A DNA stretch of 59,979 nucleotides from positions 1 through 59,979 of the forward strand of contig LADR01000033.1 in NCBI GenBank assembly GCA_000961655.1, written 5' to 3'. Below, one piece after another: positions 53,543 to 57,387 of this stretch; position 1 is the first letter of the stretch; each line of letters begins with the position of its first letter. The position numbers and the translations under genes were made by a program. The notes beneath the pieces are model-generated. The model did not search any database and had not been told where the DNA came from. It saw only the letters and a program-made list of their open reading frames with translations. The DNA comes from Desulfatitalea sp. BRH_c12. GTDB lineage: Bacteria; Desulfobacterota; Desulfobacteria; Desulfobacterales; Desulfosarcinaceae.

Positions 53543-54073
53543 ATGTTTGAAATTGGTTCTCACTTATCCAAACGCTGTCTGGTATTCGGGTGCGGCAATC
53601 CGCTCTTCGGGGATGATGGGTTCGGTGCTCACGTGATCGCGCATCTGAGCGCCCATTTCACGTTGCCGGAAGATGTGGCCTGCCTGGATGCCGGCACGGC
53701 CGTGCGCGATCTGTTGTTCGATATGCTGCTTTCGCCCCAAAAACCCGAGCGCATCATCATCGTGGACGCCATGGATGTCAGCGGCGGTGTGCCGGGCCGG
53801 ATATACGAAATTGACGTGGAACAAATCAATCCGGCCAAGATCGTCGATTTTTCGCTGCACCAGTTTCCCACCACCAACATGCTCAAGGAGATCCGGGAGG
53901 GCACGCCGATCGACGTGCGCATCCTGGTCGTGCAAATCACCGAACTGCCTGAAGCGATTCAGCCCGGTCTGTCCACGGCCGTGGCGGCCGCCGTGGCGCC
54001 CATGTGCCGGCGCATCATGCAAGCCATTTCCGGCCCATCGATCCGCAAAGACCCCAGGGAGGATTTAACGTGA
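53543..54073 (+). CDS. Hydrogenase maturation endopeptidase (M52 family)
   Basis: 176 aa. The Ni-coordination motif [19 protein letters not shown] near the N-terminus and the central [20 protein letters not shown] mark the HycI/HyaD/FrhD protease family, which trims the C-terminus of [NiFe]-hydrogenase large subunits after nickel insertion. The [11 protein letters not shown] block (His ligand) and [15 protein letters not shown] are typical. It precedes the Hdr/Mvh genes and shares a 4-base overlap (GTGA) with the next start, so it is co-translated with HdrA. Its target should be a hydrogenase large subunit encoded beyond the window. Confidence 0.9.
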
Positions 54074-57000
54074 TAGACATTCGCATCGGTCAATTGGCCC
54101 AGACCTTTGACGTTCATCGCAACACGATCGGCAACTGGATCAAAAGCGGCCGACTGAGGGCCGTGTCCACGGTTGGCAAGCGCTATCTTATCGAAAAAGA
54201 AGAAATGATACGTTTCTGCATGTCTGCAGGCATTCCCCTGCAACGCATCGCCGCACTGACAGGATCGGATGTTCCCCCGTCGCCGTCCGAAAGGCCGATC
54301 ATCCCCTCACCCATCAAAAGAGAGGTTCGCATGTCCGCTAAACCCATCGGAGCCGTCATGGTCGTCGGCGGCGGTATCGCCGGCATTCAAGCCAGCCTGG
54401 ACCTGGCCAATTCGGGCTACGCCGTTCACCTGGTCGAACGCAGTGCCGGGATCGGCGGCGCCATGGCCCAACTCGACAAAACCTATCCCACCAACGACTG
54501 TGCCATGTGAATTATCTCGCCCAAGTTGGTCGAGTGCGGTCGGCACTTGAATATTCAGCTCCACACGTTGTCCGAAGTCACTGGTTTTAATGGCCGGCCA
54601 GGCCACTTTACAGTTACCGTCCAAAAGCATCCGCGCTATATCGATATGGACAAATGCATCGCCTGCGGCCTATGCGCGGAAAAATGTCCCAAAAAAGTTC
54701 CGGATGAATTCAATATGGGACTGAACAAGCGCAAGGCGGCCTATATAAAATACGGCCAGGCCGTGCCGCTCAAATATGTCATCGACGGCCAGGCCTGCAT
54801 TTATCTGACGCGCGGTAAATGCCGGGCCTGCGAAAAGTTCTGTCCGACGGGTGCCATCAACTTCGAAGACAAGGGCGAAACCGTTCAGCTGCAGGTCGGT
54901 TCGGTGATCCTGGCGCCGGGCTACAAACCCTTCGATCCCACCGGCTGGGATTTTTACGGGTATGGCCAGATCAGCGATGTGGTCACAAGCCTCGAATACG
55001 AACGTCTGCTGTCGGCCGGTGGCCCCCACATGGGGCACCTGGTGCGCCCCTCGGATGAAACCGAACCCCGTTCGGTCGCCTGGATCCAATGTGTGGGGTC
55101 GCGCAACACCAACAACTGCGACAACGGCTACTGTTCAAGCGTCTGCTGTATGTATGCCATCAAGCAGACGCTGATCACCGCAGAGCACGCTGGCGCACAC
55201 AGTATTCAACAAACCGTCTTCTACATGGATATGCGCAGCCCCGGCAAAGAGTTCGAACGCTATTACGAAAATGCCAAGACGCGTGGCATCCGTTTTCTGC
55301 GCAGCCGCCCCCATACCATCCTGCCGGGCCCCGGGGGCAATGGCGTATGCATGCGTTACGTCACCGAAGACGGCGCAGTGCATGACGAAAATTTCGACAT
55401 GGCCGTGCTCTCGGTGGGTTTGGCACCCGCTCCGGAAAGCCGCCAGTTGGCCGCCACCTTCGGGATCGATCTGGACCCCTACGGGTTTGCCCAATCCGCC
55501 AACCTTTCGCCGGTGAACAGCAGTCGCGCGGGCGTGTTCGTGACCGGCGCCTTTCAAGCCCCCAAAGCCATTCCGCGCTCGGTCACCCAGGCCTCCGCGG
55601 CGGCTGCGGCCGCAGCCGAAGCCTTGCATGCGGTGCGCGGCACCCTGACCCGGCGCAAAAGCTATCCGGTCGAAATCAATGTTCACGGACAAGCCCCGCG
55701 CATCGGCGTTTTTGTCTGTTCGTGCGGCATCAACATCGCCGGTGTCGTCGATGTAAAAGCCGTGGCCGAACACGCCCGCACCTTGCCCCACGTCGTGCTG
55801 GTCGAGAACAACCTGTTCACCTGCTCGGTCGACACCCAGGATCAGATCGCGGCCCGCGTGCGCGAGCATCAACTGAACCGCATCGTGATCGCCGCCTGCA
55901 CACCGCGTACGCATGAGCCGCTATTTCAGGATACACTACGGGAGGCCGGCCTGAACGGCTACCTGATAGAAATGGCCAACATCCGCAACCAGAACTCCTG
56001 GGTCCACCAGCGCGAACCCGCGGCAGCCACCGCCAAGGCCAAGGATCAGGTGCGCATGGCCGTCGCCAAAGCGGCTCTGGCCGATCCCTTGGAAACGCTC
56101 ACCGTTCAGGTCGACCCCAAAGCCCTCGTTATCGGCGGCGGCGTGGCAGGCTTGACCGCCGCCCTGGGATTGGCCGAGCAGGGCTATGCGACCGTTCTGT
56201 TGGAAAAAAGTGCCCAACTGGGCGGCAACGCCCGCCGGATTGCCTTCACAGCCAAGGGAGAGGCTGTGCAACCCTGGCTCGAACATCTGGTGGCGCAGGT
56301 CCGCAACCATCCTGCAATCGAGGTCCTGACCGAAGCGCGTATGAAAACAGCGCAAGGGTCGGTGGGCCATTTCGTCAGCGATATCGACGTCAACGGCCAC
56401 GTGCGGACTATCCACTATGGCGCCGCAGTGCTGGCCACGGGCGCTGCCGAAAGCTGTCCGAACGAGTATCTGTATGGCCAGGATGAACGCGTGCTGACCC
56501 AGCTGGCGCTCGACCGGCGCTTCGACACCGACCCGGATGCCTTTGCCGGTGACGGCAGCATCGCTTTCATCCAGTGCGTGGGATCGCGCGATGCACAACG
56601 CCCCTACTGCTCGCGCATTTGCTGCACGCATACCATGCGCAGCGCCATCGCACTCAGGGAGCGGCATCCGCACATCAACGTCTATGTGCTTTTCCGCGAC
56701 ATTCGCACCTATGGCAAACGCGAAGCACTGTACCAACGCGCCCGCGAACTGGGCGTGGTATTCATCCGCTACACGCGCGACCGCAAGCCCCACGTCACGG
56801 CCGACGCCGACAGTCTGTCGGTGGCCTGCACGGACCCGATTCTGCAAATGCCGCTGGTGTTAAAAGTCGACCACCTGGTCCTGGCCGCCGCTATCGAACC
56901 CAATGCGACCGAGGAACTGGTATCGATATACAAATGCGGGATCAATGCGGATGGTTTCTTGAACGAAGCCCATCCCAAGTTGCGACCGGTGGATTTGGCC

Positions 57001-57387
57001 GTCGATGGGTTGTTCGTATGCGGCATGGCCAATTATCCCCAACCGATCGAAGAGAGTCTGGCTCAGGCCCAAGCCGCCGTGGCGCGTGCGTGCGTGCTGC
57101 TCTCGCAACAGGAAATGCAGTTGGATGCCATTAAATCGATGGTCACCGATCGATGCGACGGCTGCGCGCTATGCCTGGATGTATGCCCTTACCGGGCTAT
57201 CCGGTTGGTCGAAGCGGTCGGCCAAAATGGATCGACAACACGGCGGGTCGCAACCGATCCGGCCTTGTGCAAAGGATGCGGTCTGTGTGCCGCCACCTGT
57301 CCCAAGGGGGGTATCTTCGTGCAAGGTTTTACCCCGGATCAATTGCGCGCCCAGGTCACGGCCGCGTTGCAGGTTGTCAATGAGTGA
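54070..57387 (+). CDS. hdrA: Heterodisulfide reductase subunit A, selenocysteine-containing, with N-terminal HTH domain
   Basis: One reading frame of 1,105 codons with an in-frame UGA at 54508 read as selenocysteine. GTG 54070 has GGGAGG seven bases upstream. Residues 1-60 are an excisionase/MerR-like HTH ([20 protein letters not shown]). A second start, ATG 54331 with AGAGG, would give HdrA alone. HdrA proper begins [20 protein letters not shown], then [27 protein letters not shown] (other HdrA have Cys there). Fe-S motifs [12 protein letters not shown] and [13 protein letters not shown] follow. A second FAD module from about residue 535 ([33 protein letters not shown]) ends in two [4Fe-4S] sites ([24 protein letters not shown]). 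It should carry the bifurcating FAD and pass electrons to MvhD and ferredoxin. The double module and HTH are unusual. Confidence 0.85.
54508..54546 (+). promoter_or_regulatory. Selenocysteine UGA and candidate bacterial SECIS in hdrA
   Basis: UGA 54508-54510 stands where HdrA homologues have Cys. Downstream, GTGC (54534-54537) and GCAC (54543-54546) pair around GGTCG, with outer CAAGT/ACTTG pairs. The loop GGUC resembles that of the E. coli fdhF SECIS, and its distance from UGA (about 28 bases) is within the usual range. Confidence 0.65.

Follow-up and report, generated by a model that had tools for sequence, protein, structure and literature searches.

HdrA provides the flavin centre of electron-bifurcating H2 enzymes. 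Among the described systems, the HdrA1-MvhADG proteins of Desulfobacterium autotrophicum HRM2 resemble the locus considered here in that a selenocysteine-containing HdrA is clustered with mvhA2DG and a hydrogenase (PMC2702500), with no HTH described there and the term 'helix-turn-helix' missing from the text. Likewise, the frhA-frhD-hdrA operons of Deltaproteobacteria share the operon type as well as selenocysteine in both HdrA and MvhD/FrhD, while the corresponding paper contains neither 'helix-turn-helix' nor 'DNA-binding' (PMC13188914). On the regulatory side, the closest counterpart is BldC of Streptomyces, whose protomers are reported to bind 9-bp direct repeats (PMC5859096).

The stretch of DNA analysed here, hereafter the window, comprises 59,979 nucleotides from Desulfatitalea sp. 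BRH_c12 (contig LADR01000033.1) and harbors an operon whose HdrA is predicted to carry an N-terminal winged helix-turn-helix (HTH) domain, a fusion for which no description was found in the open-licence literature searched. Based on comparative sequence analysis, we propose with a probability of roughly 0.72 that this hydrogenase-linked HdrA subunit doubles as a BldC-like autoregulator of its own operon. The relevant features are:

51126..53018, +, PAS/sigma54 activator gene adjoining the operon upstream (PF00158, E 2.3e-62)
53470..53485, +, sigma54-like promoter TGGCACGTATTTTGGA, one mismatch to the consensus
53506..53541, +, proposed operator, four tandem 9-mers AAGCACAAT TTGCAACTT TGGCACAAT TGGAACAAT
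53543..54073, +, hycI, hydrogenase maturation protease (PF01750, E 4.1e-21)
54070..57387, +, HTH-HdrA fused frame with UGA at codon 147 (frame reading, comparison with relatives)
54070..54261, +, winged HTH, residues 1-64
54268..54336, +, disordered linker, residues 67-89 (23 residues; pLDDT <50; conserved columns absent)
54331..54333, +, internal ATG with Shine-Dalgarno sequence (gagagg, -9.2 kcal/mol), possible second start
54346..55638, +, first HdrA unit, about residues 93-523, without the HdrA N-terminal domain (NF041778, 5odc_A)
54508..54510, +, UGA read as selenocysteine, residue 147 (Cys in homologues; tRNA-Sec and SelB in the genome)
54524..54560, +, possible bSECIS hairpin (z -1.38 against shuffles)
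55693..57384, +, second HdrA unit, residues 542-1105 (5odc_A 3-180 and 503-647)
57556..57999, +, mvhD with UGA at 57757-57759 (PF02662, E 3e-52)
57953..59146, +, FrhB-like subunit, longest frame; the start may lie downstream, after mvhD (PF04432, PF04422)
59227..59979, +, VhuG/MvhG-like small subunit of the hydrogenase, truncated where the contig stops at 59979 (PF01058)

The fused reading frame and its selenocysteine codon

Positions 54070 to 57387 of the forward strand constitute a single open frame of HTH, linker and tandem HdrA, which ends with the stop codon at 57385-57387 and is interrupted solely by the TGA at 54508-54510, as the original prediction had held; with this UGA read through, the protein comprises 1105 residues. 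The GTG start overlaps the hycI stop codon (GTGA, 54070-54073), and the strong ribosome site ascribed to it corresponds to a Shine-Dalgarno sequence of -10.9 kcal/mol. The excisionase/MerR-like character claimed for the N-terminus was confirmed by Pfam HTH_17 (E 6.5e-9; 36.4 bits against a cut-off of 27) and TIGR01764 'excise' (31.9 bits against 28.8), and among 30 protein matches within the same genome the HTH is covered only by the gene at 54070-57387. The predicted double HdrA was recovered as well: residues 95-523 match positions 144-574 of NF041778, with 5odc_A 150-514 also covering this first unit, and residues 542-1105 match HdrA in turn. That these are FAD/Fe-S HdrA domains is further indicated by an E-value of 3.6e-179 to 5odc_A and by conserved Cys columns that are invariant in alignment A1, while the NCBIfam HdrA2 model NF040770 stays below its cut-off (948.6 against 1100 bits). 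Judged by these scores, the protein is an HdrA homologue outside the family of that model.

The UGA at residue 147 coincides with a conserved HdrA Cys position, as originally noted, since it aligns with the Cys of solved HdrA chains (TNDC-x-x-C) and 11 HTH-bearing relatives feature a Cys codon there. The genome also encodes tRNA-Sec (72.4 bits, cut-off 47) and SelB (379.5 bits, cut-off 242), so that the in-frame UGA at a Cys position of homologues is accompanied by these two components of the machinery expected for a selenoprotein. The hairpin 3' of the UGA scores mildly better than shuffled sequences, and the UGA of mvhD (G-U-HLGECHY) constitutes the second selenocysteine of the operon. Gene callers that stop at UGA would presumably hide the fusion in Sec-type genomes.

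Conservation of the fusion and the question of two products

In 70 HTH-HdrA loci, some of which are copies of one genome, the HTH and HdrA are always in the identical frame, and stops between them occur only in L041 and L068, which represent the same DNA. Since this agreement persists although the linkers of the HTH-bearing loci are unalignable and devoid of conserved columns, a chance fusion is unlikely. Among 80 loci fetched from named genomes, 32 have HTH and HdrA in one frame that stays open up to the Sec/Cys codon, including those of Desulfosarcina widdelii (L067), Desulfatibacillum alkenivorans (L122) and Desulfocicer vacuolatum (L104), and one locus (L068) is split. A match over both HTH and HdrA is present in at least 31 of the 291 class genomes, and in 30 of these 31 no stop intervenes. 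An HTH-only scan of 117 genomes adds two more (G125 and G146, assigned because their open frames are shared or long); 17 of its 19 hits lie in HTH-HdrA loci, the other two being weak (34 bits). Moreover, a scan across the phylum (148 genomes) yielded six that pass E 1e-28, and three of these do not belong to the class.

Absence or displacement of the HTH in close relatives, which would have refuted the original reading, is not what the genus displays: seven of ten same-genus genomes possess HTH and HdrA in frame, while an HTH match is absent in G003, G004 (86% complete) and G009 (64% complete). On an HdrA tree of 52 rows, obtained by a quick search, the HTH label demands two changes without the split row and three with it, and the split row L068 is nested inside the fused group, which fits one or two origins of the fusion. 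Conservation of the fusion is thereby established at the level of sequence, and by the same comparison the fusion is old and kept; the suggestion of a recent event proved wrong in view of the three genomes outside the class and the one or two origins.

The architecture varies in several lineages. Cys-type frames encode 1106-1137 amino acids in the nine loci uncut by a contig end. In G231 (L220:8551-12432), HTH, HdrA and MvhD form a triple fusion of 1294 residues, and in L066 and L076 the HycI protease, HTH and HdrA lie in one open frame, the HTH of L076 being without a start codon of its own. Finally, HTH-HdrA is present twice on one contig (JAHJLN010000185.1; L083 and L093), at a distance of about 11.7 kb; one copy belongs to a complete Mvh operon, and for the other no mvhD was found.

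Alternatively, the frame might give rise to two proteins, a short HTH regulator and an HdrA starting at 54331, the HTH ending at the UGA or never being joined and the shared frame reflecting translational coupling only. This would agree with the split in L068 and with the Sec-type loci, 21 of 22 of which offer a start codon close to where HdrA begins, the Shine-Dalgarno energy lying beyond the 5% point in 13 of 21 (reference: 596 in-frame ATGs). However, nine of 11 Cys-type loci contain a single open frame with no ATG, GTG or TTG in the ten codons scored before the HdrA start; the remaining two offer only a TTG, and the Sec-type locus L104 likewise has no near start codon. In addition, the in-frame linkers differ greatly in length in all lineages but one, and on the tree the split lineage falls within the fused ones, rendering separate proteins an unlikely explanation. 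Because start codons are missing from these ten codons, HdrA is probably made only as a fusion in most Cys-type loci and in L104, whereas both fused and HTH-less HdrA are conceivable in loci with an internal start; in the window, the start at 54331 may also give HdrA without the HTH, so that two products are possible. In L068/L041, three stops separate the HTH from HdrA, and the end of HycI lies in the HTH frame. As these loci retain the repeat site described below (p 0.02), covalent linkage appears non-essential there.

The HTH head and the repeat site upstream of hycI

Across 40 aligned HTHs, A10, V15, H16, R17, N18, T19, N22, W23 and A31 are invariant, and dN/dS ranges from 0 to 0.32 (within-clade pairs with HTH dS <0.6); by this measure the HTH is under selection. 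Structure models depict a single winged HTH of MerR-like fold without a coiled coil: only a short helix (residues 57-64) precedes the linker, and the long helix that follows the wing in classical MerR proteins is absent from the models. BldC is the best PDB sequence match (E 0.0012) and ranks first in both fold comparisons, with modest scores tied with other winged helices, while the NCBIfam BldC model NF033787 reaches 23 bits and thus stays below its cut-off of 77.

A motif-free count of 4-mer dyads in the 450 bp upstream of hycI in 23 HTH-bearing loci revealed TGCA-N7-CACA as the best dyad, present in 15 of 23 upstreams as against a maximum of 10-11 in four simulated sets, and the top dyads all describe one direct repeat with a 9-bp period. 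Its consensus is TTGCACAAW, with two to five units per site by a loose score. Same-strand GCAY pairs in 34 HTH-bearing regions amount to 51, 18 and 11 at spacings of 9, 18 and 27 and to no more than 6 at each of the remaining spacings up to 30, compared with 5 at spacing 9 in 34 HTH-less regions. Using a hand-set unit score and 100 first-order simulated sequences for each region, sites at p<=0.05 were found in 28/34 HTH-bearing versus 5/34 HTH-less regions; these p-values overstate the case because the sequences are related, and only four of the HTH-less controls are hycI operons, most others being paralogous hdrA-mvhD loci. Held-out loci possess the site in 11 of 13 cases: the first set gave nine of 11 at p 0.005 (L173 has p 0.095, and L036 only 340 bp upstream), and the site also scores in L223 and L224, which represent two species of a single genus from outside the class. 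Within a locus, the highest-scoring stretch is the one upstream of hycI in 20/24 HTH-bearing and 1/4 HTH-less loci. At the level of sequence, these results show a link between the repeat and HTH-bearing operons. In the window, the operator region ranks second among 137 stretches of 450 bp; its array starts 20 bases after the sigma54-like element, and a single base separates it from the hycI ATG.

The 291 class genomes contain 89 exact matches to the pattern, about six times as many as for the reversed control (15). Ten of the 89 are found 239-716 bp before the start of an HTH-HdrA gene, compared with an expectation of about 0.002 for genomes averaging 4.2 Mb, an assumed size; one of the ten, in G231, separates HTH-HdrA from a divergently oriented gene for a hydrogenase small subunit. 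Three further matches belong to HTH-HdrA loci: that of G143 precedes a run of hydrogenase small and large subunit genes continuing into hycI and HTH-HdrA, and those of G113 and G146 lie about 5.5 kb downstream. The other 76 fall outside such loci, and none of the seven inspected by eye (G073, three times; G227, G086, G014 and G003) precedes hydrogenase genes. The units of the window are degenerate, and its genome contains no exact match to the strict pattern.

A scoring site within 450 bp upstream is absent from L083, L084, L088, L113 and L136; L090 has no good site upstream, and that of L070 is weak. Nevertheless, a strong site is present on the opposite strand of L083, L084, L088 and L136, at 5.5-6.6 kb downstream; it precedes by about 25 bp a gene of unassigned function, which adjoins hydrogenase genes in the regions inspected (L083, L084 and L219, the latter being the L136 region), while L113 offers only weaker matches in a shorter stretch of sequence. 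This gene, of about 206-214 amino acids (L219:3372-4016, L084:6325-6969, L083:10951-11571), has its start some 25 bp past a strong TTGCACAA repeat, and its L219 copy showed no Pfam match. The HTH-less locus L073 has a site-like repeat at -449, perhaps a relic, since L073 groups beside the HTH-bearing clade on the HdrA tree.

The HTH could instead be a fossil or a protein-docking module, with another regulator using the 9-bp repeats. Winged HTHs can act as docking domains, and a sigma54 activator gene adjoins the operon of the window. Still, the polar residues of the recognition helix are invariant next to an unconserved linker, two invariant residues (T19 and W23) correspond to phosphate contacts of BldC (T27 and W31), and the site co-occurs with the HTH at the 9-bp period of BldC-type binding, which leaves a fossil or docking role improbable. 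The earlier idea that the subunit could bind DNA is supported by a matching 9-bp direct-repeat site that had gone unnoticed at first; sites of this kind characterize the BldC family, and the one found here is a candidate target of the HTH.

Proposed direction of control and comparison with known systems

Promoter calls, which are consensus matches only, were made in 24 hycI upstreams; for the sigma54-like element at 53470..53485, they employ a -24/-12 consensus assumed by us. A similar element is present in L061-L064, L067, L068, L076 and L122. The best repeat pair starts 15-40 nt after the sigma54-like element in 8/24 upstreams (the window, L061-L064, L067, L068 and L122) and -2 to 36 nt after a -10-like match in 6/24 (L069, L070, L074, L075, L079 and L104), four of these six matches carrying three mismatches. 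In L076 the best pair touches the promoter-like element, in 6/24 it lies upstream of or across the match (L065, L072, L082, L090, L091 and L093), and L066, L071 and L077 (3/24) have no promoter-like match near the best pair. This commonest position, after a promoter-like element, suggests that HTH-HdrA represses its own operon. Activation appears rather unlikely: MerR-like proteins often activate, the repeats of L065, L162 and L166 flank a -35-like hexamer on both sides, and the six upstream or overlapping pairs would suit an activator, but the best pair follows the promoter-like element in 14/24, by consensus matches, where activators seldom act.

Upstream of the sigma54-like promoter, GGGG/CCCC inverted repeats occur at 53284-53308 and 53371-53392, their G/C blocks being partly kept in L061-L063. 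They are possible candidate sites of the adjacent sigma54 activator.

In the proposed autoregulation, the HdrA electron-transfer subunit would carry its winged HTH on a flexible tether, and the HTH would bind the TTGCACAAW tandem repeat near the promoter of the hycI-hdrA-mvhD-frhB-mvhG-mvhA operon, usually just downstream of the promoter-like element; in some loci, the target would be a neighbouring hydrogenase operon instead. The Mvh-Hdr complex is built around an HdrA dimer, which would thus present a pair of tethered HTHs to neighbouring repeats; in L068, tethering is lost and the site kept. Binding would adjust hydrogenase expression, most likely by autorepression, and assembly with MvhD and hydrogenase, or the redox state of HdrA, may release the HTH from DNA. 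In Sec-type loci, the internal start may additionally yield HTH-less HdrA.

It is doubtful, in our estimation, that the UGA also serves as a selenium switch of the hydrogenase operon. Without selenium, ribosomes from 54070 would end at codon 147, and the resulting 146-residue HTH protein would still bind the operator and shut an operon whose HdrA and MvhD require selenocysteine. With selenium, the HTH would be tethered to HdrA and repression subject to complex assembly or redox state. The Cys-type clade would have lost this switch, the internal start being lost in most Cys-type loci as well.

Taken together, the sequence evidence for a conserved BldC-like HTH-HdrA fusion with a matching repeat is strong. 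The fusion occurs in many sulfate-reducing bacteria, where the enzyme portion probably takes part in regulating its own synthesis, and it offers a direct test of how these organisms match hydrogenase supply to H2 or electron load; the TTGCACAAW repeats, moreover, provide a defined site for finding such operons.

The HTH-HdrA head resembles BldC (structures 6amk and 6ama; PMC5859096) in that a winged HTH without a coiled coil would alone contact DNA, in the Thr and Trp that contact phosphate in BldC, and, as regards its candidate site, in 9-bp direct repeats of variable number; the classical MerR family has a palindromic operator. In contrast to BldC, the HTH of the window is fused to a flavoprotein, the repeat is TTGCACAAW instead of AATTxxxxC, and the base-reading R30 and K26 are replaced by the invariant N22 and N18. 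If the proposal is true, BldC-type binding of 9-bp repeats extends to an enzyme-borne domain. An analogy is furthermore given by PutA and other trigger enzymes, in which a metabolic enzyme represses its own operon (PMC6978683). The predicted chain described here likewise unites an enzyme and a DNA-binding domain. The two differ in build: PutA is another enzyme and binds DNA with a ribbon-helix-helix fold, compared with the winged HTH on HdrA. Should HdrA indeed act on its own operator, the enzyme itself would set the transcription of its hydrogenase, as PutA does for proline.
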